Position numbers and translations under genes: made by a program. Shown here piece after piece: positions 27,820 through 55,519 of a stretch of DNA of 64,000 nt. How positions within the stretch are numbered: position 1 is the first letter of the stretch; each line of letters starts with the position of its first letter. Source of the DNA: Mayamaea pseudoterrestris (lineage: Eukaryota > Bacillariophyta > Bacillariophyceae > Sellaphorales > Sellaphoraceae); assembly GCA_027923505.1 (NCBI GenBank), contig BROI01000004.1, positions 310,001 to 374,000 on the forward strand, in the 5' to 3' direction. A model generated the notes under the pieces. It did no database searches. It was given only the letters and a program-made list of their open reading frames with translations, and was not told the DNA's origin.

Positions 27820-28154
27820 AAACTGATGTCCATACTCAGAGCCATGTCCATAATTAAAAGATATCCAGATGGTGTCAACATACCTGGCTGGAACCTCATG
27901 ACAATGCAAGAAGATTGTAAAAGATTTGCTTCAAAACCCAGCTGGTGGGGGGGGGGGGCACAACTTGCTGAAGTCCATAATCAAAGCTGTGTCCATGACC
28001 AATAGACACCACAATGGTGGCAACATCCTTTTTCAGGCTGCTCTACAAAAAAACCTGGATGGTGACTCATGATGCTGCAATGCCATTGGTGAGAACTACT
28101 CACCAGTCCCAGCCAGTAGCTGCCATGACTTTTGACAGCCCATTCGTAGTGCCA
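27820..28154. repeat. Left flank: about two degenerate copies of a ~150-bp repeat
   Basis: Two related stretches are seen, one near 27,830-27,945 (GTCCATAATTAAAAG...) and one near 27,975-28,154 (GTCCATAATCAAAG..., GGCTGCTCTACAA..., CACCAGTCCCAGCCAG...). A run of 12 G (27,947-27,958) lies in the first. The second copy matches the right flank of the array (55,520-55,885). It stops at ATGTCTATGTCC where the 356-bp array begins. Confidence 0.7.
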
Positions 28155-28752
28155 TGTCTATGTCCAGCGGTGTACCCTGTTTGGTCAGTTGCACCCATTC
28201 CAATCTCCACCACCATGTATGTCATGGTGAGACTCAGCAGATCCAACAACTTGTGGGATCTGCTAGCAGCGCACCTCAAGTGACACTTCAGACTGCCAGA
28301 ATAACCTGCCAGTTATAAAATACAAAAAAAACATACATTCCTTAAGTGATTAATACACGAAGGCTTGTCACCTTGGGTGTGAAACCCATCCCTTTGCCAT
28401 GAGACTCCGCACATGTAACCAATCATTGATTGTGCCAGCCGTGCACCCTTTTTGGCTACACGAACCATCATTGTTGCCTGTTGAGCCCCCCAATCCATTT
28501 CAATTCATGTTGGGTGTCATGATGGGCCAATGCTTGGGTCAGTTGCACCCACCCATTCCAGTCTCCACCACCATGTATGTCATGGTGAGACTCGGCAGAT
28601 CCAATATTTTGTTGTATCTGTTAGCAGTGCACCTCAAGTGGCACTTCAGACTGCCAGAAGAACCTGCCAGTTCTGGAATACAAAGAACATACATTTTCTG
28701 AGTGATTAATACGCGAAAGCTTGTCGCCTTGGGTGTGAAACCCATCCCTTTG

Positions 28753-29450
28753 CCATGAGACTCCGCACATTCAACCAATCATTCAATGTGCGCCAGCCGT
28801 GCACCCTTTTTGGCTTCACGAACCATCATTGTTGCCAGTTGAGCCCTCCAATCCATTTTAATTCATGCTGAATGTCATGATGGGCCAATGCTTAAGTCAG
28901 TTGCACTGACCTGTTCCAGTCTCCATCACCATGTATGTCATGGTGAGACTCGGCAGATCCAACAACATGTTGTATCTGTTAGCAGCGCACCTCAAGTGGC
29001 ACTTTAGACTGCCAGAATAACCTGCCAGTTCTGGAATACAAAGAACATACATTTTTTAAGTGAATAGAGCGCAAAGGTTTGTCACCTTGGGTGTGAAACC
29101 CATCCCTTTGCCATGAGACTCCGCACATTCAACCAATCATTCAATGTGCGCCAGCCGTGCACCCTTTTTGGCTTCACGAACCATCATTGTTGCCAGTTGA
29201 GCCCTCCAATCCATTTTAATTCATGCTGAATGTCATGATGGGCCAATGCTTAAGTCAGTTGCACTGACCTGTTCCAGTCTCCATCATTATGTATGTCATG
29301 GTGAGACTCGGCAGATCCAACAACATGTTGTATCTGTTAGCAGCGCACCTCAAGTGGCACTTTAGACTGCCAGAATAACCTGCCAGTTCTGGAATACAAA
29401 GAACATACATTTTCTGAGTGATTAATACGCGAAGGCTTGTCACCTTGGGT
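28753..29450. repeat. Adjacent near-identical monomer pair (~359-bp offset)
   Basis: The segments starting 28,753 and 29,112 match almost base for base for over 330 bp, including the shared oddities ATTCAATGTGCGCCAGC and GGCTTCACGAACC. This marks a recent single-monomer duplication. Confidence 0.75.
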
Positions 29451-30799
29451 GTGAAACCCATCCCTTTGCCATGAGACTCCACACATTCAACCAATCATTG
29501 AATGTGCCAGCCGTGCACCCTTTTTGGCTGCATGAACCATCATTATTGCCAGTTGGGCCCTCCAATCCAATTTAAGTCATGTTGGGTGTCATGATGGGCC
29601 ATTGCCTAGGTCAGTTGCACTGACCCATTCCAGTCTCCATCACCATGTATGTCATGGTGAGAACTTGGCAGGTCCAACAACTTGTTGGATCTGTTAGCAG
29701 CACACCTCAAGTGGCACACCAGACTTCCAGAATGGCCTGCCAATTCTGGAATACAAAGAAAATACATTTTTTAGTGATTAGAGCGCAAAGGCTTGTCACC
29801 TTGGGTGTGAAACCCATCCCTTTGCCATGAGACTCCGCACATTCAACCAATCATTGAATGTGCCAGCCGTGCACCCTTTTTGGCTGCACGAACCATCATT
29901 GTTGCCAGTTGAGCCCTCCAATCCATTTCAGTTCATGTTGGGTGTCATGATGGGCCAATGCTTAAGTCCGTTGCACTGACCCGTTCCAGTCTCCATCACC
30001 ATGTATATCATGGTGAGAACTTGGCAGATCCAACAACATGTTGGATCTGCTAGCAGTGCACCTCAAGTGGCACTTCAGACTGCCAGAATAACCTGCCAGT
30101 TCTGGAATACAAAGCAAATACATTTTCTAAGTGATTAGAGCACAAAGGCTTGTCACCTTGGGTGTGAAACCCATCCCTTTTAAATGAGACTCCGCACATT
30201 CAACCAATCATTGAATGTGCCAGCCGTGCACCCTTTTTGGCTACACAAACCACCATTGTTGACTGTTGAGCCCCCCAATCCATCTCAATTCATGTTTGAT
30301 GTCATGTTGGGCCATGCTTAAGTCAGTTGCAACCATCCATTCCAGTTTCCACCACCATGCATGTCATGGTGAGTCTTGGCAGATCCAACAATTTGTTGCA
30401 TCTGTTAGCAGCGCACCTCAAGTGGCATTCCAGACTGCCAGAATAACCTGCCAGTTCTGGAATACAAAGAACATACATTTTGCAAGTGATAAGAGCACAA
30501 AGGCTTGTCACCTTGGGTGTGAAACCCATCCCTTTGCCATGAGACTCCGCACATTCAACCAATCATTGAATGTGCCAGCCGTGCACCCTTTTTGGCTACA
30601 CGAACCATCATTGTTGCCACTTGAGCCCTCCAATCCATTTTAATTCATGTTGGGTGTCATGATGGGCCATTGCCTAGGTCAGTTGCACTGACCCATTCCA
30701 GTCTCCATCACCATGTATGTCATGGTGAGAACTTGGCAGGTCCAACAACTTGTTGGATCTGTTAGCAGTGCCCCTCAAGTGGCACTTCAGACTGCCAGA

Positions 30800-31470
30800 A
30801 TAACCTGCCTGTTCTGGTATACAAGAATCATTTGTTTTTCAAGTGAATAGAGTGCAAAGGCTTGTCATCTTGGGTGTGAAATCCATCTATTTGCCATAGA
30901 CTCCGCACATTCAACAAATGGTTGAATGTGCCAGCCGTGCACCCTTTTTGGCTACACGAACCATCATTGTTGCCACTTGAGCCCTCCAATCCATTTTAAT
31001 TCATGTTGGGTGTCATGATGGGCCAATACTTGGGTCAGTTGCACCCACCCGTTCCAGTCTCCACCACCATGTATGTCATGGTGAGAACTTAGAAGTTCCA
31101 ACATCATGTTGGATCAGCTAGCACTGCACCTCAAGTGGCACTTTAGACTGCCAGAATGGCCTGCCAGTTCTGGAATACAGAGAACATACATTTTCTAAGT
31201 GATTAGAGCGCAAAGGCTTGTCACCTTGGGTGTGAAACCCATCCATTTGCCATGAGACTCCGCACATTCAACCAATCATTGAATGTGCCAGCCGTGCACC
31301 CTTTTTGGCTACATGACCATCATTGTTGCCAGTTGAGCCCTCCAATCCATTTTAATTCATGTTGGGTGTCATGATGGGCCAATGTTTACATCAGTTGCAC
31401 TGACCCGTTCCAGTCTCCATCACCATGTATGTCATGGTGAGACTCGGAGGATCCATCAACATGTTGTATC
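30800..31470. repeat. Higher-order block C-D-E, copy 1
   Basis: Three distinctive variants in order: C (30,805-30,930, with GTATACAAGAATCATTTG and the stem CACATTCAAC/GTTGAATGTG), D (31,085-31,130, with AACTTAGAAGTTCCAACATC), and E (31,310-31,470, with GGCTACATGACCATC and GGGCCAATGTTTACATCAG). The same order recurs at 39,440-40,040. Confidence 0.7.
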
Positions 31471-34400
31471 TGTTAGCAGTGCACCTCAAGTGGCACTTCA
31501 GACTGCCAGAATAACCTGCCAGTTCTGGAATACAAAGAAATTACATTTTTTAAGTGATTAGAGCGCAAAGGTTTGTCACCTTGGGTGTGAACCCATCCCT
31601 TTGCCATGAGACTCCGCACATTCAACCAATCATTGAATGTGCCAGCCGTGCACCCTTTTTGGCTACACGAACCATCATTGTTGCCAGTTGAGCCCTCCAA
31701 TCCATTTTAATTCATGTTGGGTGTCATGATGGGCCAATGCTTAAGTCCGTTGCACTGACCCGTTCCAGTCTCCATCACCATGTATGTCATGGTGAGAACT
31801 TGGCAGATCCAACAACATGTTGGATCTGCTAGCAGTGCACCTCAAGTGGCACTTCAGACTACCAGAATAACATGCCAGTTCTGGAATACAAAGAACATAC
31901 ATTTTTTAAGTGATTAGAGCGCAAAGGTTTGTCACCTTGGGTGTGAAACCCATCCCTTTGCCATGAGACTCCGCACATTCAACCAATCATTGAATGTGCC
32001 AGCCGTGCACCCTTTTTGGCTACACGAACCATCATGTTTGCCTGTTGAGCCCTCCAATTCTTTCCATTTCATGTTTGGTGTTATGATGGGCCAATACTTA
32101 GGCCAGTTGCACTGACCCGTTCCAGTCTCCATCACCATGTATGTCATGGTGAGACTCGGAGGATCCAACAATATGTGGGATCTGCTAGCAGCGCACCGCA
32201 AGTGGCAATCTAGACTGCCAGAATAACATGCCAGATCTGGAATACAAAGAACATACATTTTTTAAGTGATTAGAGCGCAAAGGTTTGTCACCTTTGGTGT
32301 GAACCCATCCCTTTGCCATGAGACTCCGCACATTCAACCAATCATTGAATGTGCCAGCCGTGCACCCTTTTTGGCTACACGAACCATCATTGTTGCCTGT
32401 TGAGCCCCCCAAACCATTTCAATTCATGTTGGGTGTCATGATGGGCCAATACTTGGGTCAGTTGCACCCACCCGTTCCAGTCTTTACCACCATGTATGTC
32501 ATGGTGAGACTCAGAGGATCCAACAACTTGTTGGATCTGCTAGCAGCACACCGCAAGTGGCAATCTAGACTGCCAGAATAACATGCCAGATCTGGATTTT
32601 AAGCAGACATAAGGCTTGTCATTTTGACCTTGGGTGTGAAACCCATCCCTTTGCCATCCCTCTTTTTGTGCCAGCCGTGCACCCTTTTGGTCATGCCAGT
32701 TGAGCCCCCCAATCCATTTCCATTCATATTGGGTGTCATGATGGGCCAATATTTAGGTCAGTTGCACCCAGCCGTTCCAGTCTTTACCACCATGTATATC
32801 ATGGTGAGACTTTGCAGATCCAGCATCATGTTGGATCTGTAGCAGCGCACCTCAAGTGGCAATCTAGACTGCCAGAATGGCCTGCCATTTCTGGAATACA
32901 AAGAACATACATTTTCTAAGTGATTAGAGCGCAAAGGCTTGTCACCTTGGGTGTGAAATCCATCTATATGCCATGAGACTCCGCACATTCAACCAATCAT
33001 TGAATGTGCCAGCCGTGCACCCTTTTTGGCTACACGAACCATCATTGTTGCCAGTTAAGCCCTCCAATCAATTTAATTTCATGTTGGGTGTCATGATGGG
33101 CCAATGCTTAAATCTGTTGCACTGACCCGTTCCAGTCTCCATCACCATGTATGTCATGGTGAGAACTTGGCAGATCCAACAACATGTTGGATTTGCTAGC
33201 AGTGCACCTCAAGTGGCACTTCAGACTGCCAGAATAACCTGCCAGTTCTGGAATACAAAGAAATGACATTTTTTAAGTGATTAGAGCGCAAAGGCTTGTC
33301 ACCTTGGGTGTGAAACCCATCCCTTTGCCATGAGACTCCGCACATTCAACCAATCATTGAATGTGCCAGCCGTGCACCCTTTTTGGCTGCACGAACCATC
33401 ATTGTTGCCAGTTGAGCCCTCCAATCCATTTTAATTCATGTTGGGTGTCATGATGGGCCAATATTTAGGTCAGTTGCACTGACCCGTTCCAGTCTCCATC
33501 ACCATGTATGTCATGGTGAGAACTTGGCAGATCCAACAACATGTTGGATTTGCTAGCAGTGCACCTCAAGTGGCACTTCAGACTGCCAGAATAACCTGCC
33601 AGTTCTGGAATACAAAGAACATACATTTTTTAAGTGAATAGAGCGCAAAGGTTTGTCACCTTGGGTGTGAAACCCATCCCTTTGCCATGAGACTCCGCAC
33701 ATTCAACCAATCATTGAATGTGCCAGCCGTGCACCCTTTTTGGCTACACAAACCATCAGCTTTGCCAGTTGAGCCTTCCAATCCATTTCCATTCATGTTG
33801 GGTGTCATGATGGGCCAATACTTGGGTCAGTTGCACCCACCCGTTCCAGTCTTTACCACCATGTATGTCATGGTGAGACTCGGAGAATCCAACAACTTGT
33901 TGGATCTGCTAGCAGCGCACCTCAAGTGGCAATCTAGACTGCCAGAATGGCCTGCCAATTCTGGAATACAAAGAAAATACATTTTTTAGTGATTAGAGCG
34001 CAAAGGCTTGTCACCTTGGGTGTGAAACCCATCCCTTTGCCATGAGACTCCGTACATTCAACCAATCATTGAATGTGCCACCCGTGCACCCTTTTTGGCT
34101 ACACGAACCACCATTGTTGACTGTTGAGCCCCCCAATCCATTTCCATTCATGTTTGGTGTCATGATGCGCCAATGCTTAAGTCAGTTGCACCCAACCAAT
34201 CCAGTCTCCCCCACCATGTATGTCATGGTGAGAACTTGGCAGATCCAACAACATGTTGGATCTGCTAGCAGTGCACCTCAAGTGGCACTTCAGACTTCCA
34301 GAATAACCTGCCAGTTCTGGAATACAAAGCAAATACATTTTCTAAGTGATTAGAGCGCAAAGGCTTGTCACCTTGGGTGTGAAACCCATCCCTTTGCCAT

Positions 34401-37400
34401 GAGACTCCGCACATTCAACCAATCATTGAATGTGCCAGCCGTGCACCCTTTTTGGCTACACGAACCATCATTGTTGCCAGTTGAGCCCTCCAATCCATTT
34501 CAGTTCATGTTGGGTGTCATGATGGGCCAATGCTTAAATCTGTTGCACTGACCCGTTCCAGTCTCCATCACCTCATGGTGAGAACTTGGCAGATCCAACA
34601 ACATGTTGGATCTGCTAGCAGTGAACCTCAAGTGGCACTGCAGACTACCAGAATAACCTGCCAGTTCTGGAATACAAAGAACATACATTTTTTAAGTGAT
34701 TAGAACGCAAAGGTTTGTCACCTTGGGTGTGAAACCCATCCCTTTGCCATGAGACTCCGCACATTCAACCAATCATTGAATGTGCCAGCCGTGCACCCTT
34801 TTTGGCTACACGAACCATCATTGTTGCCTGTTGAGCCCCCCAATCCATTTCAATTCATGTTGGGTGTCATGATGGGCCAATACTTGGGTCAGTTGCACCC
34901 ACCCGTTCCAGTCTCCACCACCATGTATGTCATGGTGAGAACTTGGCAGATCCAACAACTTGTTGGATCTGCTAGCAGCACACCTCAAGTGGCACTTCAG
35001 ACTTCCAGAATAACCTGCCATTTCTGGAATACAAAGAACATACATTTTCTAAGTGATTAGAGCGCAAAGGCTTGTCACCTTGGGTGTGAAACCCATCCCT
35101 TTGCCATGAGACTCCGCACATTCAACCAATCATTGAATGTGCCAGCCGTGCACCCTTTTTGGCTGCACGAACCATCATTGTTGCCAGTTGAGCCCTCCAA
35201 TCAATTTTAATTCATGTTGAATGTCATGATGGGCCAATGCTTAAATCCGTTGCACTGACCCATTCCAGTCTCCATCACCATGTATGTCATGGTGAGAACT
35301 TGGCAGATCCAACAACATGTTGGATCTGCTAGCAGTGCACCTCAAGTGGCACTTCAGACTGCCAGAATAACCTGCCAGTTCTGGAATACAAAGCAAATAC
35401 ATTTTCTAAGTGATTAGAGCGCAAAGGCTTGTCACCTTGGGTGTGAAACCCATCCCTTTGCCATGAGACTCCGCACATTCAACCAATCATTGAATGTGCC
35501 AGCCGTGCACCCTTTTTGGCTGCACGAACCATCATTGTTGCCAGTTGAGCCCTCCAATCCATTTTAATTCATGTTGGGTGTCATGATGGGCCAATGCTTG
35601 GGTCAGTTACAACCACCCATTCCAGTCTCCACCACCATGTATGTCATGGTGAGAACTTGGCAGATCCAACAACATGTTGGATTTGCTAGCAGTGCACCTC
35701 AAGTGGCACTTCAGACTGCCAGAATAACCTGCCAGTTCTGGAATACAAAGAACATACATTTTTTAAGTGATTAGAGCACAAAGGTTTGTCACCTTTTTGT
35801 GAACCCATCCCTTTGCCATGAGACTCCGCACATTCAACCAATCATTGAATGTGCCAGCCGTGCACCCTTTTTGGCTACACAAACCATCATTGTTGCCTGT
35901 TGAGCCCCCCAATCCATTTCCATTCATGTTGGGTGTCATGATGGGCCAATACTTGAGTCGGTTGCACCCACCCATTCCAGTCTTTACCACCATGTATGTC
36001 ATGGTGAGAACTTGGCAGGTCCAACAACTTGTTGGATTTGTTAGCAGTGCCCCTCAAGTGGCACTTCAGACTGCCAGAATAACCTGCCAGTTCTGGAATA
36101 CAAAGCAAATACATTTTCTAAGTGATTAGAGCGCAAAGGCTTGTCACCTTGGGTGTGAAACCCATCCCTTTGCCATGAGACTCCGCACATTCAACCAATC
36201 ATTGAATGTGCCAGCCGTGCACCCTTTTTGGCTACACGAACCATCATTGTTGCCAGTTGAGCCCTCCAATCAATTATAATTCATGATGGGTGTCATGATG
36301 GTCCAATGCTTAAATCCGTTGCACTGACCCATTCCAGTCTCCATCACCATGTATGTCATGGTGAGAACTTGGCAGATCCAACAACATGTTGGATTTGCTA
36401 GCAGTGCACCTCAAGTGGCACTTCAGACTTCCAGAATATCCTGCCAGTTCTGGAATACAAAGCAAATACATTTTTTAAGTGAACAATACGCGAGGCTTGT
36501 CACCTTGGGTGTGAAACCCATCCCTTTGCCATGAGACTCCGCACATTTAACCAATCATTGAATGTGCCAGCCGTGCACCCTTTTTTGGCTGCACGAACCA
36601 TCATTGTTGCCAGTTGAGCCCTCCAATCCATTTTAATTCATGTTGGGTGTCATGATGGGCCAATGCCTAGGTCCGTTGCACTGACCCATTCCAGTCTCCA
36701 TCACCATGTATGTCATGGTGAGAACTTGGCAGGTCCAACAACTTGTTGGATTTGTTAGCAGTGCCCCTCAAGTGGCACTTCAGACTGCCAGAATAACCTG
36801 CCATTTCTGGAATACAAAGAACATACATTTTATAAGTGATTAGAGCGCAAAGGCTTGTCACCTTGGGTGTGAAACCCATCCCTTTGCCATGAGACTCCGC
36901 ACATTCAACCAATCATTGAATGTGCCAGCCGTGCACCCTTTTTGGCTACACGAACCATCATTGTTGCCACTTGAGCCCTCCAATCCATTTTAATTCATGT
37001 TTGGTGTCATGATGCGCCAATGCTTAAGTCAGTTGCACCCAACCAATCCAGTCTCCCCCACCATGTATGTCATGGTGAGAACTTAGAAGTTCCAACATCA
37101 TGTTGGATCAGCTAGCACTGCACCTCAAGTGGCACTTTAGACTGCCAGAATGGCCTGCCAGTTCTGCAATACAGAGAACATAGATTTTTTAAGCGATTAG
37201 ACCGCAAGGGCTTGTCATCTTGGGTGTGAAACCCATCCATTTGCCATGAGACTCTGCACATTCAACCAATCATTGAATGTGCCAGCCGTGCACCCTTTTT
37301 GGCTACATGACCATCATTGTTGCCAGTTGAGCCCTCCAATCCATTTTAATTCATGTTGGGTGTCATGATGGGCCAATGTTTACATCAGTTGCACTAACCC

Positions 37401-38514
37401 GTTCCAGTCTCCATCACCATGTATGTCATGGTGAGAACTTGGCAGGTCCAACAACTTGTTGGATCTGTTAGCAGTGCCCCTCAAGTGGCACTTTAGACTG
37501 CCAGAATGGCCTGCCAGTTCTGGAATACAGCGAACATACATTTTTAAGTGATTAGAGCGCAAAGGCTTGTCACCTTGGGTGTGAAACCCATCCCTTTGCC
37601 ATGAGACTCCGCACATTCAACCAATCATTGAATGTGCCAGCCGTGCACCCTTTTTGGCTGCACGAACCATCATTGTTGCCAGTTGAGCCCTCCAATCCAT
37701 TTTAATTCATGTTGGGTGTCAGGATGGGCCAATACTAGTCAGTTGCACCTGCCAGTTCTGACATGTATGTCATGGTGAGACTCGGAAAATGGGATCGTTG
37801 CACCTCAGTGGCACTTTAGACAGCCAGAATGGCCTGCCAATTCTGGAATACCAGGAAAATACATTTCTTAACTGATTAGAGCGCAAAGGCTTGTCACCTT
37901 GGGTGTGAAACCCATCCATTTGCCATGAGACTCCGCACATTCAACCAATCATTGAATGTGCCAGCCGTGCACCCTTTTTGGCTACATGACCATCATTGTT
38001 GCCAGTTGAGCCCTCCAATCCATTTTAATTCATGTTGGGTGTCATGATGGGCCAATGCTTAAGTCCGTTGCACTGACCCGTTCCAGTCTCCATCACCATG
38101 TATGTCATGGTGAGAACTTGGCAGATCCAACAACATGTTGGATCTGCTAGCAGTTACCTCAAGTGGCACTGCAGACTACCAGAATAACATGCCAGTTCTG
38201 GAATACAAAGAACATACATTTTTTAAGTGATTAGAACGCAAAGGTTTGTCACCTTGGGTGTGAACCCATCCCTTTGCCATGAGACTCCGCACATTCAACC
38301 AATCATTGAATGTGCCAGCCGTGCACCCTTTTTGGCTACACGAACCATCATTGTTGCCTGTTGAGCCCCCCAATCCATTTCCATTCATGTTGGGTGTCAT
38401 GATGGGCCAATACTTGGGTCAGTTGCACCCACCCGTTCCAGTCTTTACCACCATGTATATCATGGTGAGACTCGGAGGCTCCAACAACTTGTTGGATCTG
38501 CTAGCAGCACACCT

Positions 38515-38890
38515 CAAGTGGCACTTCAGACTTCCAGAATAACCTGCCAGTTCTGGAATACAAAGCAAATACATTTTCTAAGTGATTAGAGCGCAAAGGC
38601 TTGTCACCTTGGGTGTGAAACCCATCCCTTTGCCATGAGACTCCGCACATTCAACCAATCATTGAATGTGCCAGCCGTGCACCCTTTTTGGCTACACGAA
38701 CCATTCAAGTGGCACTTCAGACTTCCAGAATAACCTGCCAGTTCTGGAATACAAAGCAAATACATTTTCTAAGTGATTAGAGCGCAAAGGCTTGTCACCT
38801 TGGGTGTGAAACCCATCCCTTTGCCATGAGACTCCGCACATTCAACCAATCATTGAATGTGCCAGCCGTGCACCCTTTTTGGCTACGTGA
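38515..38890. repeat. Truncated monomer duplicated in tandem (~190 bp)
   Basis: A 190-bp part of the monomer, from TCAAGTGGCACTTCAGACTT to TTTTTGGCTAC, occurs twice in direct succession. The junction near 38,704 joins AACCAT directly to TCAAGTGG, skipping about 170 bp of the monomer, hairpins 2 and 3 included. Confidence 0.7.
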
Positions 38891-39439
38891 ACATCATTGT
38901 TGCCAGCTGAGCCCTCCAATTCTTTCCATTTCATGTTTGATGTCATGATGGGCCAATGCTTAAATCTGTTGCACTGACCCATTCCAGTCTCCATCACCAT
39001 GTATGTCATGGTGAGAACTTGGCAGATCCAACAACTTGTTCAGCGCACCTCAAGTGGCACACCAGACTTCCCGAATGGCCTGCCAATTCTGGAATACAAA
39101 GAAAATACATTTTTCAAGTGATTAAAGCGCAAAGGCTTGTCACCTTGGGTATGAAACCCATCCCTTTGCCATGAGACTCCGCACATTCAACCAATAACTG
39201 AATGTGCCAGCCGTGCACCCATTTTGGCTACATGAACCATCATTGTTGCCACTTGAGCCCTCCAATCCATTTTATTTCATGTTGGGTGTCATGATGGGCC
39301 ATTGCCTAGGTCAGTTGCACTGACCCATTCCAGTCTCCATCACCATGTATGTCATGGTGAGAACTTGGCAGATCCAAGAACATGTTGGATCTGCTAGCAG
39401 CGCACCTCAAGTGGCACTTCAGACTGCCAGAATAACCTG

Positions 39440-40040
39440 CCTGTTCTGGTATACAAGAATCATTTGTTTTTCAAGTGAATAGAGTGCAAAGGCTTGTCAT
39501 CTTGGGTGTGAAATCCATCTATTTGCCATAGACTCCGCACATTCAACAAATGGTTGAATGTGCCAGCCGTGCACCCTTTTTGGCTACACGAACCATCATA
39601 TTTGCCTGTTGAGCCCTCCAATTCTTTCCATTTCATGTTTGATGTCATGATGGGCCAATGCTTAAGTCAGTTGCAGCCACCCATTCCAGTCTCCACCACC
39701 ATGTATGTCATGGTGAGAACTTAGAAGTTCCAACATCATGTTGGATCAGCTAGCACTGCACCTCAAGTGGCACTTTAGACTGCCAGAATGGCCTGCCAGT
39801 TCTGGAATACAGAGAACATACATTTTTAAGCAATTATACCGCAAGGGCTTGTCACCTTGGGTGTGAAACCCATCCATTTGCCATGAGACTCCGCACATTC
39901 AACCAATCATTGAATGTGCCAGCCGTGCACCCTTTTTGGCTACATGACCATCATTGTTGCCAGTTGAGCCCTCCAATCCATTTTAATTCATGTTGGGTGT
40001 CATGATGGGCCAATGTTTACATCAGTTGCACTAACCCGTT
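39440..40040. repeat. Higher-order block C-D-E, copy 2
   Basis: Same variant order as at 30,800-31,470, about 8.65 kb downstream: C at 39,445-39,562, D at 39,717-39,760, E at 39,945-40,030. Confidence 0.7.
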
Positions 40041-41209
40041 CCAGTCTCCATCACCATGTATGTCATGGTGAGAACTTGGCAAATCCAACAACTTGTTCAG
40101 CGCACCTCAAGTGGCACACCAGACTTCCAGAATGGCCTGCCAATTCTGGAAAACAAAAAAAATACATTTTTTAAGTGATTAAAGCGCAAAGGCTTGTCAC
40201 CTTGGGTGTGAAACCCATCCCTTTGCCATGAGACTCCGCACATTCAACCAATCATTGAATGTGCCAGCCGTGCACCCTTTTTGGCTACACGAACCATCAT
40301 TGTTGCCTGTTAAACCCCCCCAATCCATTTTAATTCATGTTCGGTGTCATGATGGGCCAATACTGGGGTCAGTTGCACCCACCCGTTCCAGTCTCTACCA
40401 CCATGTATGTCATGGAGAGACTCAGCAGATCCAACAACATGTTGGATCTGCTAGCAGTGCACCTCAAGTGGCAATCTAGACTGCCAGAATGGCCTGCCAA
40501 TTCTGGATTACAAAGAAAATACCTTTTTTAACTGATTAGAGCGCAAAGGCTTGTCACCTTGGGTGTGAAACCCATCCCTTTGCCATGAGATTCCGTACAT
40601 TCAACCAATCATTGAATGTGCCAGCCGTGCACCCTTTTTGGCTGCATGAACCATCATTATTGCCAGTTGGGCCCTCCAATCCAATTTAATTCATGTTGGG
40701 TGTCATGATGGGCCAATACTTAGGTCAGTTGCACCCACCCGTTCCAGTCTTTACCACCATGTATGTCATGGTGAGACTCAGCAGATCCAACAACTTGCTG
40801 GATCTGCTAGCAGCGCACCTCAAGTGGCAATCTATACTAACAAAATGGCCTGCCAATTCTGGAATTCAAAAAATCATTTTTTAAGTGATTAATAGGCAAT
40901 GGTTTGTCACCATGGGCATGAAACCCATCCCTTTGCCAAGAGACTCCGCACATTCAACCAATCATTGGATGTGCCAGTTGGCACCCTTTTTGGCTACACA
41001 AACCATCATTGTTGCCTGTTGAGCCCCCCAATCCATTTCCATTCATGTTGGGTGTCATGATGGGCCAATATTTAGGTCAGTTGCACCCACCCGTTCCAGT
41101 CTTTACCACCATGTATATCATGGTGAGACTTGGCAGATCCAACAACTTGTTGGATCTGTAGCAGCGCACCTCAAATGGCAATCTAGACTGCCAAATTGGC
41201 CTGCCATTT

Positions 41210-42420: not shown

Positions 42421-44700
42421 GTTTCTTTTTTATCCTTTTCCTCTCATCTTATCTCATGCTCCTTGTTGATCTCACACTTCAGACTGCAAGAATAACCTGC
42501 CTGTGTTCTGTATACAAGAATCATTTGTTTTTTTTTAGTGAATAAAAGTGCAAAGCTTGTCATCTTGAGTTGTGAAATCCATCTATTTGCCATAGACTCC
42601 GCTGTTCAACAAATGGTTGAATGTGTACTGCAACACCTTTTTGGCTACTCGAATGTTGTTTGCCTGTTGAGCCCTCCAATTCTTTCCATTTCATGTTTGG
42701 TGTTATGATGGGCCAATACTTAGGCCCCTGTCTCTCAAAGTAATCGGAAGAGATCAACAATTTTGGGATCTGCTACTGCACCGAATGGCACTAGACTGCC
42801 AGAATACCTGCCAGACTACAATCATTCATTTTTCGTGTTGAGCGCGTTTGTCACCTTGGGTGTGGAACCATCCCTTTGCCATGAGACTCCGCACATTCAA
42901 CCTTTGAATGTGCCACATCCCTTTTTGGCTACCACACGCCCTGCTGAGCCCAACTTTCCATTTCATGTTTGGTGTCATGATGGGCCAATGCTTTGGTCAG
43001 TTGCGCCACCCATTCGTCTCACACATTTCTTGAAACTCAAATCCAACATTTGTTGGATCTGCTACAGGCACCTCAATCTGACTCATGCCTAAATACTTTG
43101 TTTCCAATTTGGCTTGTCACCTTGGTGTGGAACCCATCCCTTGGCCACGAGACTCCACATTCAACCTTTGAGCACACCCTTTTTGGCTACAGGGACCATC
43201 AGCGTCCTTTGACCGAACCTTATGTTTGGTGTCATGATGGGCCCTTTCAGTTGCACCCTCGTCTCCACCACATCAGACCTTGCAGATCAACAACTTGTTG
43301 GATCTGTTACAATGCCCCTCAAGTGGCACTTCAGACTGCCAGAATGGCCTCCTTTCTACAACATTGTGTTTCAGTGATTAGGACTCAACTTGTCACCTTG
43401 TGTGAAACCCTCTTTGGCCATAACTCCCACATTCAACAAATGTTGAATGTGCCACCTGCACACCCCTTTCTACAGCTGCCCTGAGCCCCGAATCCTTTTC
43501 AATTCATGTTGGGTGTCATGATGGGCCATATGTGGTCAGTTGCACCCCATTCCAGTCTCCACCACCATGTATGTCATGGTGAGACTCAGAAGATCCAACA
43601 ACTTGTTGGATCTGCTAGCAGTGCACCTCAAGTGGCAGCTTCAGACTGCCAGAATAACATGCCAGTTCTGGAATACAAAGAACATACATTTTTAAGTGAT
43701 TAGAGCGCAAAGGTTTGTCACTTGGGTGTGAAACCCATCCCTTTGCCATGAGACTCCGCACATTCCACCAATCATTGAATGTGCCAGCTGTGCACCCTTT
43801 TTGGCTCAACAAACCATCACTGCCTTTGAGCCCCCATCCATTTCCATTCATGTTGGGTGTCATGATGGGCCAATACTTGGGTCAGTTGCACCCACCCGTT
43901 CCAGTCTTTCACACCATGTATATCATGGTGAGACTCAGAATCAACAACTTGTTGGATCTGCTGCAGTACACCTCAATGCACTTCAGACTGCCAGAATCCT
44001 GCCTTCTGGAATACAATGCATTGTGTTCAAGATTTGGCGCAACTTGTCACCTTGGGTGTGGAACCCACCCTTGGCCATGAGACTCCAACTTGTCGGATTT
44101 TCTGACCCTCTGACCATCCATTTTTTGGTGTCATGATGGGCAATGTTGTCAGTTGCGCACCATTCCGTCTCCACCACCTGTATGCATGTGAGCTCACTTG
44201 TGCAAACTTGTTGGCATGGCACTTCACTGCCAATCCTCCATACAGAACATTGTGTTTCAATTGATTTGGACGCAAGGCTTGTCACCTTCGGTGTGGAACC
44301 CATCCCTTTGCCATGAGACTCCGCACATTCAACCAATGGTTGAATGTGCCACCGTACACCCTTTTTGGCTGACAAGGACCGTCACTGTGCCTTCTGAGCC
44401 CTCCAATCCATTTTCCAATTCATGTTTGGTGTCATGATGGGCCAATGCTTTAGTCCGTTGCACTGACCCGTTCAGTCTCCATCACCATGTATGTCATGGT
44501 GAGAACTTGCTTGCAGATCCAACAACATGTTGGATCTGCTAGCAGTAACCTCAAGTGGCACTTCAGACTACCAGAATAACCTGCCAGGATACAAAGAATC
44601 AATGATTAGACTCAAAGGCTTGTCACCTTGGGTGTGAACCCATCCCTTTGCCATGAGACTCCGCACATTCAACCAATGGATGTGCCAGCGCCCCGGCGGT
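42417..44700. repeat. Deletion-rich core of the array
   Basis: Monomers here are 230-330 bp and carry many small deletions. The block opens with a 50-base pyrimidine-rich insert (42,417-42,470) not found in other monomers and ends near a GC-rich scrap (44,690-44,720, GCGCCCCGGCGGTCGGC). The first stem is kept in several copies despite deletions: 42,892-42,912, 43,428-43,451. Confidence 0.7.
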
Positions 44701-44899
44701 CGGCTCCTCTGGCCCGACCTTCTCTGTTTGGTTCATGATGGGCCAATTTGGTCAGTTCGTCACCCATTCGTCTCCACACCGTGTATGCCATGGTGAGACT
44801 CAGCTGCAGATCCAACAACTTGTTGGATCTGCTAGCAGTCACCTCAAGTGGCACTTCAGACTGCCAGAATGGCCTGCCATTAAGGACTACAATTGAGCA

Positions 44900-47370
44900 T
44901 TGTGTTTCCAGATTTGGACTGACTTGTCACCTTGGGTGTGGAACCCATCCCTTGGCCATGAGCTCCGCACATTCAACCAATGTTGAATGTGCCAGCAGTG
45001 CACCCTTTTTGGCTACAGGGACCATCAGCGCTGCCTTCTGAGCCCTGAAATCCTTTCAAGTCATGTTTGGTGTCATGATGGGCCAATGATTTAGTCAGTT
45101 GCGCCCATTCCAGTCTCTACCACCATGTATGCCATGGTGAGACTCAGCTTGCAGATCCGACAACTTGATGGATCTGCTAGCAGTGCACCTCAAGTGGCAC
45201 TTCAGACTGCCAGAATGGCCTGCCAATAAAGGAATACAATGAGCATTGTGTTTCCATTTGATTTGGACTCAAAGGCTTGTCACCTTGGGTGTGGAATCCA
45301 TCCCTCTGCCATGAGAACCCGCACATTCAACCAATGGTTCAATGTGCCAGCAGTGCACCCTTTTTGGCTACAGGGATCATCAGCGCAGCCTTCTGAGCCC
45401 TGAAACCCTTTTCATTTATTTTTGGTGTTATGATGGGCCAATGATTTGGTCCGTTGCACCCCATTCCAGTCTCCATCACCATGTATGCCATGGTGAGATC
45501 GGCTTGCAGATCCAACAACTTGTTGGATCTGCTGGCAGTACACCTCAAGTGGCACTTCAGACTGCCAGAATGGCCTGCCACAATACAAAAAGCATTTTGT
45601 GTTTCAATCTGATTGGACTCAAGGCTTGTCACCTTGGGTGGGAACCCATCCCTTGCCATGAGGACTCCGCACATTCAACCAATGGTTCAATGTGCCAGCA
45701 GTGCACCCTTTTTGGCTACAGGGATCATCAGCGCAGCCTTCTGAGCCCTGAAACCCTTTTAATTCATGTTTGGTGTCATGATGGGCCAATGATTTGGTCA
45801 GTTGCGCCCATTCCAGTCTCCACCACCATGTATGCCATGGTGAGACTCAGCTTGCAGATCCAACAACTTGTTGGATCTGCTAGCAGTGCACCTCAAGTGG
45901 CACTTCAGACTGCCAGAATGGCCTGCCAGTACAGGAATACAATGAGCATTATGTTTCAATCTGATTTGGACTCAAAGGCTTGTCACCTTGGGTGTCGAAC
46001 CCAACCCTTTGCCATGAGACTCCGCACATTCAACCAATGGTTGAATGTGCCAGCGGTGCACACTTTTGGCTACAGGGATCATCAGCGCTGCCTTCTGAGC
46101 CCTGAAATCCTTTCCAATTCATGATTGGTGTCATGATGGGCCAATGATTTAGTCAATTGCACCCATTCCAGTCTCCAGCACCATGTATGCCATGGTGAGA
46201 CTCAGTGGATCCAACAACTTGTTGGATCTGCTAGCAGTGCACCTCAAGTGGCACTTCAGACTGCCAGAATGGCCTGACAATTTTGGAATACAATGACTAG
46301 ATTGTGTTTCAGCGATTTGGACTCAAAGGCTTGTCACCTTGGGTGTGAAACCCATCCTTTTGCCATGAGACTCCACACATTCAACCAATGGTTGAATGTG
46401 CCAGCAGTGCACCCTTTTTGGCTACAGAACATCATGTGCGCAGCCTTCTGAGCCCCGAAATCCATTTCAATTCATGTTTGGTGTCATGATGGGCCAATGA
46501 TTTGGTCAGTTGCGCCACCCATTCCAGTCTCCATCACCATGTATGCCATGGTGAGACTCACTTGCAGATCCAACAACTTGTTGGATCTGCTAGCAGTGCA
46601 CCTCAAGTGGCACTTCAGACTGCCAGAATGGCCTGCCAATCTAAGGAATACAAAGAACATCATTTTCTAATTGATTTGGACTCAAAGGCTTGTCACCTTG
46701 GGTGTGGAACCCATCCCTTGGCCATGAGACTCCGCACATTCAACCAATCGTTGAATGTGCCAGCCGTGGCACCCTTTTTTGGCTACACGAACCATCAGCG
46801 CTGCCTTCGAGCCCTCAAATCCTTTTAATTCATGTTTGGTGTCAGGATGGGCCAATGATTTAGTCAGTTGCACCCATTCCAGTCTCCACCACCATGTATG
46901 CCATGGTGAGTCTCAGCTTGCAGATTCAACAACTTGTTGGATCTGCTAGCAGTGCACCTCAAGTGGCACTTCAGACTGCCAGAATGACCTGCCAGTACTG
47001 GAATACAATGCAGCATTGTGTTTCAAGCTGATTTGGACTCAAAGGCTTGTCTCCCTGGGTGAGAAACCCATCCTTTTGCCATGAGACTCCGCACATTCAA
47101 CCAATGGTGGAATGTGCCAGCTCGCACCCTTTTTGGCTACACGAATCATCAGCCTGCTTTGAGCCCCAAATCCTTTCAATTCATGTTTGGTGTCATGATG
47201 GGCCAATGATTTAGGTCAGTTGCACCCCATTCCAGTCTCCACCACCAGGTATGCCATGGTGAGACTAGCTTGGCAGATCCAACAACTTGTTGGGATATGC
47301 TAGCAGTGCACCTCAAGTGGCACTTTAGACTGCCAGAATGGCCTGCCAATACGGAATACAAGAGAACATT
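44900..47370. repeat. Subfamily B monomers, block 1
   Basis: About seven monomers share changes absent from the flanking A type: GATTTGGACTCAAAGG, GTGTGGAACCC, CCAATGGTTGAATGTG, CTACAGGGA(C/T)CATCAGCGC, CCTTCTGAGCCCTGAAA, ATGATTTAGTCAGTTGC, and ATGCCATGGTGAG. Monomers are 350-355 bp. At about 47,375 the sequence switches back to type A. Confidence 0.75.
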
Positions 47371-48889
47371 GTGTTTCTTTAAGCGATTAGACCGCAAGGG
47401 CTTGTCACCTTGGGTGTGAAACCCATCCCTTTGCCATGAGACTCTGCACATTCAACCAATCATTGAATGTGCCAGCCGTGCACCCTTTTTGGCTACATGA
47501 CCATCATTGTTGCCAGTTGAGCCCTCCAATCCATTTTAATTCATGTTGGGTGTCATGATGGGCCAATGTTTACATCAGTTGCACTGACCCGTTCCAGTCT
47601 CCATCACAATGTATGTCATGGTGAGACTCGGAGGATCCATCAACATGTTGTATCTGTTAGCAGTGCACCTCAAGTGGCACTTCAGACTGCCAGAATAACC
47701 TGCCTGTTCTGGTATACAAGAATCATTTGTTTTTCAAGTGAATAGAGTGCAAAGGCTTGTCATCTTGGGTGTGAAATCCATCTATTTGCCATAGACTCCG
47801 CACATTCAACAAATGGTTGAATGTGCCAGCCGTGCACCCTTTTTGGCTACACGAACCATCACTGTTGCCAGTTGAGCCCTGCGATCCATTTTAATTCATG
47901 TTGGGTGTCATGATGGGCCAATGCTTAAGTCCGTTGCACTGACCCGTTCCAGTCTCCATCACCATGTATGTCATGGTGAGAACTTAGAAGTTCCAACATC
48001 ATGTTGGATCAGCTAGCACTGCACCTCAAGTGGCACTTCAGACTACCAGAATAACATGCCAGTTCTGGAATACAAAGAACATACATTTTTTAAGTGATTA
48101 GAGCGCAAAGGTTTGTCACCATGGGCGTGAAACCCATCCCTTTGCCATGAGACTCCGCACATTCAACCAATCATTGAATGTGCCAGCCCTGCACCCTTTT
48201 TGGCTACATGACCATCATTGTTGCCAGTTGAGCCCTCCAATCCATTTTAATTCATGTTGGGTGTCATGATGGGCCAATGCTTGGGTCAGTTACAACCACC
48301 CATTCCAGTCTCCATCACCATGTATGTCATGGTGAGAACTTGGCAGGTCCAACAACTTGTTGGATTTGTCAGCAGTGCCCCTCAAGTGGCACTTCAGACT
48401 GCCAGAATAACCTGCCATTTCTGGAATACAAAGAACATACATTTTCTAAGTGATTAGAGCGCAAAGGCTTGTCACCTTGGGTGTGAAACCCATCCCTTTG
48501 CCATGAGACTCCGCACATTCAACCAATCATTGAATGTGCCAGCCGTGCACCCTTTTTGGCTGCACGAACCATCATTGTTGCCAGTTGAGCCCTCCAATCC
48601 ATTTTAATTCATGTTGGGTGTCAGGATGGGCCAATATTTAGGTCAGTTGCACCCACTCGTTCCAGTCTTTACCACCATGTATGTCATGGTGAGACTTGGC
48701 AGATCAAACAACATGTTGGAACTGCTAGCAGTGCACCTCAAGTGGCACTTCAGACTGCCAGAATAACCTGCCAGTTCTGGAATACAAAGAACATTTTCTA
48801 AGTGATTGGAGCACAAAGGCTTGTCACCTTGGGTGTGAAACCCATCCCTTTGCCATGAGACTCCGCACATTCAACCAATCATTGAATGT

Positions 48890-50430
48890 GCCAGCAGTGC
48901 ACCCTTTTTTGGCTACAGGAATCATCAGTGTTGCCCGTGGAGCCCACCAATCCATTTCAATTCATGTTTGGTGTCATGATGGGCTATTGCATTGGTCAGT
49001 TGCACCCATTCCAATCTCCACCACCATGTATGACATGGTGAGACTCTGCATATCCAACAACTTGTTAAATCTGCCAGCACTGCACCTCAAGTGGCACTTC
49101 CGACTACCAGAATGGCCTGCCAATTCTGGAATACAAAAAACCTTATGTTTTATAATGGATTAGGATGCAAAGGCGTGTCACTTGGGGTGTGGAACCCATT
49201 CCTTTGCCATGAGACTCCGCACATTCAACAAATGGTTGAATGTGCCAGTGGTGCACCCTTTTTGGCTACAGGATTCATCAGTGTTGCCCGCGGAGCCCAC
49301 CAATCCATTTCATTTCATGTTAGGTGTCATGATGGGCCAATGATTAAGTCAGTTGCACCCACCGTTCCAGTCTCCATCACCATGTATGCCATGGTGAGAC
49401 TTAGCGGATCCAACAACTTGTTGGATCTGCTAGCAGTGCACCTCAAGTGGCACTTCAGACTGCCAGAATGGCCTGCCAATCCTGGAATACAAAGCTCATT
49501 GTGTTTCAATCTGATTTGGACGCAAAGGCTTGTCACCTTGGGTGTGAAACCCATCACTTGGCCATGAGACTCCGCACATTCAACCATTGAATGTGCCAGC
49601 CACCCTTTTTTGGCTGCCAGGACCATCAGCGCTGCCTTCTGAGCCCCTGAAATCCTCAATTCATGTTTGGGTCATGATGGGCCAATGATTTAGTCCGTTG
49701 CACTCCATTCCAGTCTCCACCACCATGTATGCCATGGTGAGAACTCAGCTTGGCAGATCAACAACTTGTTGGATCTGCTAGCAGTGAACCTCAAGTGGCA
49801 CTTTAGACTGCCAGAATGGCCTGCCAGTTCTGGAATACAATGAATCATTTGTTTTTCAAGTGATTAGACTCAAAGGCTTGTCACCTTGGGTGTGGAACCC
49901 ATCCATTTGCCATGAGACTCCGCACATTCAGCAAATGGTTGAATGTGCCAGCCGTGCACCCTTTTTGGCTACACGAACCATCATCATGCGCTGCTTGAGC
50001 CCTGCCAATCCTTTCCATTTCATGTTTGGTGTCATGATGGGCCAATGATTTGGTCAGTTACACCCATTCCAGTCTCCAACACCACGTATGCCATGGTGAG
50101 ACTCAGCTTGCAGATTCAACAACTTGTTGGATCTGCTAGCAGTGCACCTCAAGCGGCACTTCCGACTGCCAGAACGGCCTGCCAATTCTGGAATACAAAG
50201 AACATTATGTTACAAATTCAAAAGGACTCAAAGGCTTGTCACCTTGGGTGTGAAACCCATCCTTTTGCCATGAGACTCCGCACATTCAACCTATGGTTGA
50301 TTGTGCCAGCAGTGCACCCTTTTTGGCTACAGGAATCATCAGCGCTGCCTTCTGAGCCCTGAAATCCTTTCTGATTCATTTTGTTGGTGTCATGATGGGC
50401 CAATGATTTGGTCAGTTGCACCCATTCCAG
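48890..50430. repeat. Subfamily B-like monomers, block 2
   Basis: About four monomers with B features (GTGTGGAACCC, CAGCAGTGCACCC, CATCAGCGCTGCC, ATGCCATGGTGAG), separated from block 1 by about 1.5 kb of type A. The first two carry their own change, GTTGCCCGTGGAGCCCACC or GTTGCCCGCGGAGCCCACC. At about 50,450 the array switches back to type A with variants E and C. Confidence 0.7.
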
Positions 50431-53400
50431 TCTCCACCACCACGTATGTCATGGTGAGACTCGGAGGATCCATCAACATGTTGTATCTGTTAGCAGTGCA
50501 CCTCAAGTGGCACTTCAGACTGCCAGAATAACCTGCCTGTTCTGGTATACAAGAATCATTTGTTTTTCAAGTGAATAGAGTGCAAAGGCTTGTCATCTTG
50601 GGTGTGAAATCCATCTATTTGCCATAGACTCCGCACATTCAACAAATGGTTGAATGTGCCAGCCGTGCACCCTTTTTGGCTACACGAACCATCACTGTTG
50701 CCATTTGAGCCCTGCGATCCATTTTAATTCATGTTGGGTGTCATGATGGGCCAATGCTTAAGTCCCTTGCACTGACCCGTTCCAGTCTCCATCACCATGT
50801 ATGTCATGGTGAGAACTTGGCAGATCCAACAACATGTTGGATCTGCTAGCAGTGCACCTCAAGTGGCACTTCAGACTACCAGAATAACATGCCAGTTCTG
50901 GAATACAAAGAACATACATTTTTTAAGTGATTAGAGCACAAAGGTTTGTCACCTTTTTGTGAACCCATCCCTTTGCCATGAGACTCCGCACATTCAACCA
51001 ATCATTGAATGTGCCAGCTGTGCACCCTTTTTGGCTACACGAACCATCATTGTTGCCAGTTGAGCCCTCCAATCCATTTCAGTTCATGTTGGGCGTCATG
51101 ATGGGCCAATGCTTATGTCCGTTGTATAACCCGTTCCAGTCTCCATCACCATGTATATCATGGTGAGAACTTGGCAGATCCAACAACATGTTGGAACTGC
51201 TAGCAGTGCACCTCAAGTGGCACTTCAGACTGCCAGAATAACCTGCCAGTTCTGGAATACAAAGCAAATACATTTTCTAAGTGATTGGAGCACAAAGGCT
51301 TGTCACCTTGGGTGTGAAACCCATCCCTTTGAAATGAGACTCCGCACATTCAACCAATCATTGAATGTGCCAACCGTGCACCCTTTTTGGCTACACGAAC
51401 CACCATTGTTGACTGTTGAGCCCCCCAATCCATTTCAATTCATGTTTGGTGTTATGATGGGCCAATATTTAGGTCAGTTGCACTGACCCGTTCCAGTCTC
51501 CATCACCATGTATGTCATGGTGAGAACTTGGCAGATCCAACAATATGTGGGATCTGCTAGCAGCGCACCGCAAGTGGCAATCTAGACTGCCAGAATAACA
51601 TGCCAGATCTGGAATACAAAGAACATACACTTTTTAAGTGATTAGAGCGCAAAGGTTTGTCACCTTGGGTGTGAACCCATCCCTTTGCCATGAGACTCCG
51701 CACATTCAACCAATCATTGAATGTGCCAGCCATGCACCCTTTTTGGCTACACAAACCATCATTGTTGCCTGTTGAGCCCCCCAATCCATTTCCATTAATA
51801 TTGGGTGTCATGATGGGCCAATACTTGAGTCGGTTGCACCCACCCGTTCCAGTCTTTACCACCATGTATATCATGGTGAGACCCGGAGGCTCCAAAAACT
51901 TGTTGGATCTGCTAGCAGCACACCTCAAGTGGAACTTCAGACTTCCAGAATAACCTGCCAGTTCTGGAATACAAAGCAAATACATTTTCTAAGTGATAAG
52001 AGCGCAAAGGCTTGTCACCTTGGGTGTGAAACCCATCCCATTGCCATGAGACTCCGCACATTCAACCAATCATTGAATGTGCCAGCCGTGCACCCTTTTT
52101 GGCTGCACGAACCATCATTGTTGCCAGTTGAGCTCTCCAATCCATTTCAGTTCATGTTGGGTGTCATGATGGCCAATGCTTAAGTCAGTTGCACTGACCC
52201 GTTCCAGTCTCCATCACCATGTATATCATGGTGAGAACTTGGCAGATCCAACAACATGTTGGATCTGCTAGCAGTGCACCTCAAGTGGCACTTCAGACTG
52301 CCAGAATAACCTGCCAGTTCTGGCATACAAAGCAAATACATATTCTAAGTGATTAGAGCGCAAAGGCTTGTCACCTTGGGTGTGGAACCCATCCCTTTGC
52401 CATGAGACTCCGCGCATTTAACCAATCATTGACAGTGAATGTGCCAGCCGTGCACCCTTTTTGGCTACACAAACCATCATTGTTGCCTGTTGAGCCCCCC
52501 AATCCATTTCAATTCATGTTTGATGTCAGGATGGGCCAATATTTAGGTCAGTTGCACCCACCCGTTCCAGTCTTTACCACCATGTATGTCATGGTGAGAC
52601 TTGGCAGATCCAACAACTTGTTGGATCTGTAGCAGCGCACCTCAAGTGGCAATCTAGACTGCGAGAATGGCCTGCCATTTCTGGAATACAAAGAACATAC
52701 ATTTTCCAAGTGATTAGAGCGCAAAGGCTTGTCACCTTGGGTGTGAAATCCATCTATATGCCATGAGACTCCGCACATTCAACCAATCATTGAATGTGCC
52801 AGCCATGCACCCTTTTTGGCTACACGAACCATCATTGTTGCCAGTTGAGCCCTCCAATCAATTTTAATTCATGTTGAATGTCATGATGGGCCAATGCTTA
52901 AATCCGTTGCACTGACCCATTCCATTCTCCATCACCAAGTATGTCATGATGAGAACTTGGCAGATCCAACAACATGTTGGATTTGCTAGCAGTGCACCTC
53001 AATTGGACTACAGACTGTTAGAATATCCTGCCAGTTCTGGAATACAAAGAACATACATTTTCTAAGTGATTAGAGCGCAAAGGCTTGTCACCTTGGGTGT
53101 GAAACCCATCCCTTTGCCATGAGACTCCGCACATTCAACCAATCATTGAATGTGCCAGCCGTGCACCCTTTTTGGCTACACAAACCATCAGTTTTGCCAC
53201 TTGAGCCCTTTAATCCATTTTAATTTATGTTCGGTGTCATGATGGGCCAACACTGGGGTCAGTTGCACCCACCCGTTCCAGTCTTTACCACCATGGATGT
53301 CATGGTATGGCTCCCTGGATCCAACAACTTGTTGGATCTGCTAGCAGCGCACCTCAAGTGGCAGTCTAGACTGCCAGAATGGCCTGCCAATTCTGGAATA

Positions 53401-55519
53401 CAAAAAAATACATTTTCTAAGTGATTGGAGCACAAAGGCTTGTCACCTTGGGTGTGAAACCCATCCCTTTGCCATGAGACTCCGCACATTCAACCAATCA
53501 TTGAATGTGCCAGCCGTGCACCCTTTTTGGCTACACGAACCATCATTGTTGCCTGTTGAGCCCCCCAATCCATTTCCATTCATGTTGGGTGTCATGATGG
53601 GCCAATGCTTAAGTCAGTTGCACTGACCTGTTCCAGTCTCCATCACCATGTATGTCATGGTGAGAACGTGGCAGATCCAAGAACATGTTGGATCTGCTAG
53701 CAGTGCACCTCAAGTGGCACTTCAGACTGCAAGAATGGCCTAACAATTCTGGAATACAAAGCCAACACATTTTCTAAGTGAATAATATGCGAAGGCTTGT
53801 CACCTTGGGTGTGAAACCCATCCCTTTGCCATGAGACTCCGCACATATAATCAATCATTGAATGTGCCAGCTGTGCACCCTTTTTGGCTACACAAACCAT
53901 CATGGTTGCCAGTTGAGCCCTCCAATCCATTTTAATTCATGTTGGGTGTCATGATGGGCCAATAGTGGGGTCAGTTGCACCCAACCATTCCAGTCTTTAC
54001 CACCATGTATGTCATGGTGAGAACTTGGCAGATCCAACAACATGTTGGATCTGCTAGCAGTGCACCTCAAGTGGAACTTCAGACTTCCAGAATAACCTGC
54101 CAGTTCTGGAATACAAAGCAAATACATTTTCTAAGTGATAAGAGCGCAAAGGCTTGTATTTTGGGTGTGAATCCCATCCCTTTGCCAAGAGACTCCGCAC
54201 ATTCAACCAATCATTGAATGTGCCAGCCGTGCACCCTTTTTGGCTACACAAACCATCAGTTTTGCCAGTTGAGCCCTCCAATCCATTTTCATTTATGTTG
54301 GGTGTCATGATGGGCGAATACTGGGGCCAGTTGCACCCACACATTCCAGTCTTTACCACCATGTATGTCATGGTGAGAACTTGGCAGATCCAACAACATG
54401 TTGGATCTGCTAGCAGTGCACCTCAAGTGGCAATCTAGAATGCCAGAATGGCCCGACAATTCTGGAATACAAAGGAAATACATTTCTAAGTGAATAGAGC
54501 GCAAAGGTTTGTCACCTTGGGTGTGAATCCCATCCCTTTGCCATGAGACTCCGCACATTCAACCAATCATTGAATGTGCCAGTCGTGCAACCTTTTTGGC
54601 TACACGAACCATCATTGTTGCCTGTTGAGCCCCCCAATCCATTTCCATTCATATTGGGTGTCATGATGGGCCAATGCTTAAGTCAGTTGCACTGACCCGT
54701 TCCAGTCTCCATCACCATGTATGTCATGGTGAGAACTTGGCAGATCCAAGAACATGTTGGATCTGCTAGCAGCGCACCTCAAGTGGCACTTCCCAGACTA
54801 CCAGAATAACATGCCAGTTATGGTTACAAAGAACATACATTTTTTAAGTGATTAATACGCAAAGGTTTGTCACCATGGGCGTGAAACCCATCCCTTTGCC
54901 ATGAGACTCCGCACATTCAACCAATCATTGAATGTGCCAGCCGTGCACCCTTTTTGGCTACACGAACCATCATTGTTGCCTGTTGTGCCCCCCAATCCAT
55001 TTCCATTCATATTGGGTGTCATGATGCGCCAATGCTTAAGTCAGTTGCACTGACCCGTTCCAGTCTCCATCACCATGTATGTCATGGTGAGAACTTGGCA
55101 GATCCAAGAACATGTTGGATCTGCTAGCAGCGCACCTCAAGTGGCACTCCAGACTGCCAGAATAACCTGCCAGCTCTGGAATACAAAGAACAAACATTTT
55201 TCAAGTGATTAATACGCGAAGGCTTGTCATCTTGGGTGTGAAACCCATCTCTTTGCCATGAGACTCCGCACATTCAACCAATCATTGAATGTGCCAGCCG
55301 TGCACCCTTTTTGGCTACACGAACCATCATTGTTGCCTGTTGTGCCCCCCAATCCATTTCAATTCATGTTTGGTGTCATGATGCGCCAATGCTTAAGTCA
55401 GTTGCACCCAACCAATCCAGTCTCCCCCACCATGTATGTCATGGTGAGACTCGGCAGATCCAACATCTTGGGGGATCTGCTAGCAGCGCACCTCAAGTAG
55501 CAATTTAATATGCAAAAAT

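Follow-up and report, generated by a model that had tools for sequence, protein, structure and literature searches.

A satellite array between two convergent genes

The locus raises the question of what kind of sequence fills about 27 kb between two convergent genes, and how it came to have its present organisation. A preliminary description of the window (the whole stretch of 64,000 nucleotides analysed here, which has no N bases) had proposed a hairpin-rich satellite in a gene-dense region, and this was borne out by TRF, a profile search, the density of stems and the flanking genes. The array runs head-to-tail with a 356-bp period and holds roughly 77 monomer equivalents, so that the earlier count of 79 monomers was about right. 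Its extent, and the monomer that serves as our example throughout, are as follows.

28,166–55,524, plus strand: whole satellite array (TRF and profile search; first 14 bases by eye)
34,826–35,181, plus strand: example monomer, subfamily A (profile search and DNA folding)

TRF reports 356/357-bp arrays at 28,193–42,417 and 44,725–55,502, and the profile search recovers an unbroken series of 80 monomer pieces between 28,180 and 55,524, all on the plus strand, the short minus-strand matches being palindromes that hit themselves. By eye, bases 28,166–28,179 also fit monomer positions ~317–331. Most monomers are 355–357 bp long, and a typical A monomer carries about 10–35 substitutions and 0–1 deletion events relative to the consensus. 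The GC content of the array is 46.9%, against 49.7% in the genic part to its left, which agrees with the earlier statement that it is not AT-rich. Stop codons occur in every frame (mean 3.6–6.8 per monomer) and the period is not a multiple of three; the array is therefore non-coding, and its long head-to-tail run of similar non-coding monomers is what satellite DNA generically denotes. We considered a repeat protein as a reading of the array and rejected it because of the stops in all frames. For an open reading frame of 260 amino acids within the array, at 45,342–46,124, Pfam gave no match, and ARAGORN found no tRNA.

The neighbouring genes end close to the array, with the flanking stop codons where the preliminary description had placed them. 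On the left, an alpha/beta-hydrolase gene on the plus strand ends with its stop codon at 27,618; on the right, a minus-strand gene (56,369–58,863, ending at ~56,369) encodes an RRM and a C-terminal L7Ae domain, and its product may be SECIS-binding-protein-2-like. The reading frame of the RRM/L7Ae gene shifts near 56,815, through a consensus error, an unrecognised short intron or a real break. Other genes in the window encode aconitase, a histidinol-dehydrogenase-family enzyme, a V/A-type ATPase subunit, RsfS, CobW and a CGL160-like protein, together with bZIP, GLE1, GPR1/FUN34, DA1, PEX19 and kelch proteins, a content that fits a photosynthetic eukaryote. For the histidinol-dehydrogenase-family protein, encoded at 1784–3277, the best solved relative is (R)-DHPS dehydrogenase (239.5 bits, against 232 for histidinol dehydrogenases), and from this similarity its product possibly has a role in sulfonate metabolism.

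The monomer is a dimer of diverged half-units

Comparison of the monomer with itself revealed that the 356-bp unit is an internal dimer of two diverged half-units of ~178 bp, each containing one 27-bp palindrome. The relationship is clearest in a 48-bp box shared by the two halves, in which 36 of 48 positions are identical without gaps, while any other register of the monomer gives at most 19 of 48.

34,936–34,983, plus strand: half-unit box 1 of the example monomer (right end approximate)
35,107–35,154, plus strand: half-unit box 2 of the example monomer (half-unit alignment)

Local alignment of one half against the other gave a score of 31.1 for the subfamily B consensus (maximum of 17.7 in 1000 shuffles) and 22 for the subfamily A consensus (maximum of 21 in 1000 shuffles). 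The centres of the palindromes are alternately ~170 and ~186 bp apart (168–170 and 185–188 bp in most copies), with a mean of 178 bp. Together, the shared boxes, the half-unit alignment above shuffles and the mean spacing indicate that the 356-bp unit arose long ago when a ~178-bp unit was doubled; the alternation of 170 and 186 bp could be a historical accident. Identity between the boxes of the two halves is 73% in B and 69% in A, and since its halves are slightly more alike, subfamily B may be closer to the ancestral state. The preliminary description had observed that 356 bp is about two nucleosome repeats, and this view is strengthened by the finding that the monomer splits into two ~178-bp halves, diverged from each other and each with its own palindromic box. 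Nucleosomal-dimer satellites, with their alpha-satellite-like organisation, have a basic unit of this kind, in which two nucleosome-length copies have diverged.

Palindromes in the array

Perfect stems of at least 7 bp occur at 7.75 per kb in the array, about eightfold more often than in shuffles (0.97 per kb), and at 0.5–0.7 per kb in the surrounding genes (0.72 in those to the left). Short dyad symmetries are thus present above chance, as in centromeric satellites. Three palindromes of the example monomer illustrate the arrangement.

34,919–34,937, strand not applicable: palindrome P1, 7-bp arms (DNA folding)
34,946–34,972, strand not applicable: palindrome P2, 27 bp, in half-unit 1 (stem analysis)
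35,116–35,142, strand not applicable: palindrome P4, 27 bp, in half-unit 2 (stem analysis)

P2 and P4 are related, and their likeness extends past the symmetrical part, with TGAGACT on the left and an AGC..GTGCACC motif on the right. Both 27-bp palindromes contain inverted CAAC/GTTG-like half-sites, which are exact in B and presumably resemble MYB-type recognition elements. P1 and P4 are strongly conserved but P2 is not, its variability being 0.092 compared with 0.084 outside stems. The symmetry itself is real; however, given the higher variability of P2 and the absence of compensatory changes from the stems, some of the palindromes are under no visible constraint.

These stems might instead be read at the level of RNA, with the monomers transcribed and acting as hairpin RNA, as a source of small RNAs or as a ribozyme-like satellite RNA. 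The predicted fold of a typical monomer as RNA has a z-score of −5.3 on the plus strand and −2.9 on the minus strand, and small RNAs are known to match oomycete satellites (PMC7290008). Folding of the same monomer as DNA is nevertheless at least as significant (z-score −6.2 against its own shuffles), as DNA palindromes would give, and a search of Rfam, self-cleaving ribozymes included, returned no covariance-model match at either gathering or permissive thresholds. Moreover, across 67 monomers no convincing compensatory change was found in any of stems P1–P5, where deviations from pairing are one-sided, whereas such changes would mark an array of non-coding RNA units. Selection at the RNA level is therefore not supported, and we consider a structured RNA highly improbable.

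Subfamilies and homogenisation

The array is not uniform. Its full monomers fall into subfamily A (56 monomers, 90% mutual identity) and subfamily B (11 monomers, 85% mutual identity), with 83% identity between A and B, and the blocks follow one another in the order A, B, A, B, A.

28,180–42,419, plus strand: block of subfamily A monomers (profile search and subfamily assignment)
44,726–47,510, plus strand: mainly subfamily B monomers, the last of which, from 47,160, is an A/B mixture
47,511–48,932, plus strand: A monomers (subfamily assignment)
48,933–50,698, plus strand: second block of B or mixed monomers (subfamily assignment)
50,699–55,524, plus strand: A monomers up to the right edge (profile search and subfamily assignment)
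38,514–38,895, plus strand: exact, recent duplication of a 191-bp partial monomer (TRF)

In an allele-sharing permutation test, no gradient of similarity was found between neighbouring A monomers, since adjacent copies share alleles at 0.617, against 0.617 ± 0.015 when permuted. Linkage between variable sites falls from an r2 of 0.34 at 1–3 bp to 0.05 at 50–100 bp and fades within ~25–50 bp, so that individual monomers are mosaics. Superimposed on this are runs of 2–7 similar consecutive monomers at scattered lags with no fixed period; runs of two monomers with more than 93% identity number 47, compared with 18 under permutation. The pattern fits frequent exchange of short tracts combined with occasional duplication of blocks, and assembly polishing with multi-mapped reads could be the source of part of the mosaicism.

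A broken stretch within the array

The first A block ends at an abrupt break, where a short sequence unrelated to the repeat is followed by nine monomers shortened by many small deletions.

42,420–42,472, strand not applicable: pyrimidine-rich sequence of ~50 bp, unrelated to the repeat, at the abrupt break (profile search)
42,473–44,725, plus strand: indel-rich, shortened monomers with mixed A and B alleles; probable low-quality or collapsed consensus

After a truncated first copy, these monomers have 6–16 deletion events each, compared with 0–1 in typical A monomers, and the deletions tend to fall in columns at which the copies differ from one another (Spearman 0.29, higher than in all shifted controls), the pattern that merging several copies' reads into one consensus would give. 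Real decay that spared conserved blocks could look similar. A GC-rich oddity is present near 44,690–44,725. The stretch from 42,420 to 44,725 is probably a poor assembly join or artefact, and the length of the array is accordingly uncertain.

A wider form of this explanation is that the assembly makes part of the pattern, with reads of different monomers merged into one consensus at 42,420–44,725 and polishing responsible for the mosaicism elsewhere. The abrupt break, the foreign ~50 bp, the small deletions at variable columns, the mixed alleles and the apparent frameshift in the neighbouring gene all speak for it, and we lean towards accepting it as a partial explanation, although monomers outside this stretch are clean (0–1 indels) and sort consistently into subfamilies, and the genes nearby keep long open frames. 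The concern in the preliminary description that the array might be an assembly artefact thus holds in part, for the indel-rich stretch and its foreign sequence, and does not extend to the entire array.

Decayed repeats at the edges

Immediately outside the array on both sides are older-looking tandem repeats, each consisting of about two decayed copies with a period of ~150–156 bp, in the same orientation on the two sides.

27,823–28,165, plus strand: decayed tandem repeat, left flank (edge-to-edge comparison)
55,531–55,900, plus strand: decayed tandem repeat, right flank (edge-to-edge comparison)

The left and right repeats are 72–75% alike across the array. Their consensus aligned weakly to monomer positions 347–107, with a score that none of 600 genic controls reached but that exceeded shuffles only marginally (p = 0.025), and on this similarity the flanking repeat may be an older, distant relative of the monomer.

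The presence of other repeats at the edges also bears on whether the array might be a tandem stretch from inside a transposable element, or what is left of one, and tandem parts of retrotransposons are described as often giving rise to satellites (PMC7004042). A transposon-derived tandem repeat would be recognised by a mobility gene or by terminal repeats at its edges; however, no mobility domain was detected by Pfam in the open reading frames scanned, no inverted match was found between the two edges of the array, and the repeats in the flanks are tandem copies in direct orientation. We regard a transposon origin as very unlikely.

Comparison with known satellites

Searches for relatives of the monomer gave no match. 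BLAST against plasmid and phage collections returned nothing and the exact core patterns were absent from viral contigs and prokaryotic genomes, an absence that says little because these collections are essentially non-eukaryotic. In the open-access literature we found no 356-bp stramenopile satellite and no close match to a dimeric, palindromic satellite of 178-bp units. Judged against non-eukaryotic collections and open-access literature, the family appears to be new but of a well-known kind of sequence, and it may already be known to the authors of the assembly.

The closest likeness in organisation is to the dimeric (n/B) arrays of primate alpha-satellite, in which units are likewise on the scale of a nucleosome, homogenisation acts on a dimer as the basic repeat, a short box occupies a constant position in the units and the edges carry decayed older repeats (PMC8997354), to which the decayed repeats flanking our array may correspond. 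Alpha-satellite differs in having a unit of 171 bp rather than ~178 bp, and a 17-bp CENP-B box in one half where we observe a 27-bp palindrome in both; a sequence relation is not expected, and the array described here, unlike primate alpha-satellite, is only ~27 kb long. Amongst stramenopiles, Phytophthora parasitica has the satellites PpSat1 and PpSat2; monomers of PpSat1 exceed double the length of those of PpSat2 (142 bp) and have been likened to two-nucleosome satellites (PMC7290008). By their description these fall into similar size classes, but copies of PpSat1 differ little from one another and are in part telomere-associated (PMC7290008), whereas the present array has 90% identity within its main subfamily, two subfamilies and a position between housekeeping genes. 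TmSat1 and TmSat2 of Tribolium, examples of (peri)centromeric satellites rich in dyad symmetries, likewise combine numerous short inverted repeats in each subunit with a long unit that goes back to a shorter one (PMC13081366); unlike them, our array has no inverted subarrays, all monomers running in one direction.

These likenesses invite the reading that the array is an active centromere or part of one, in which the palindromic boxes either attract a kinetochore-related protein or form cruciforms that help to place the centromeric histone. Both the nucleosomal dimer with its aged edges, which recalls dimeric alpha-satellite (PMC8997354), and the dyad symmetry far above chance, which recalls dyad-rich centromere satellites (PMC13081366), point in this direction. 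The array is, however, only 27 kb long and sits amid housekeeping genes, and a tandem repeat of 46.9% GC does not resemble the short, AT-rich, non-repetitive centromeres of the diatom P. tricornutum (PMC7082073). We therefore consider a centromeric role unlikely.

Proposed origin and significance

The array is, in our assessment, likely to be non-coding satellite DNA of the nucleosomal-dimer type. We propose that an ancestral ~178-bp unit doubled, and that gene conversion, unequal exchange or break-induced replication afterwards multiplied the dimer and homogenised its copies, a history with which all our observations agree. With a box about once per nucleosome, the array would probably be packaged in phased, silent chromatin, and the palindrome is a likely candidate site for a dimeric, sequence-specific DNA-binding protein. 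The convergent intergenic gap would host the array with promoters left undisturbed, and the array probably persists mainly through its own expansion.

The most far-reaching possibility, which we think distinctly doubtful, is that this is the centromere of a photosynthetic protist and an independently evolved counterpart of alpha-satellite, with a ~178-bp unit, dimerisation, a dedicated dimeric protein on a palindromic box in each half and ageing edges, in contrast to the short, AT-rich and non-repetitive centromeres of its better-studied relatives. If the array is only local, the gene-dense genome of this protist would simply contain an ordinary satellite, of use mainly as an example of position-independent homogenisation. 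If it occurs genome-wide, it would be a defined repeat with which to study whether protists have evolved dimers like those of alpha-satellite on their own: its ancestral ~178-bp unit is clear, and its palindrome is a candidate for protein binding, with a box that would be directly testable as a binding site.
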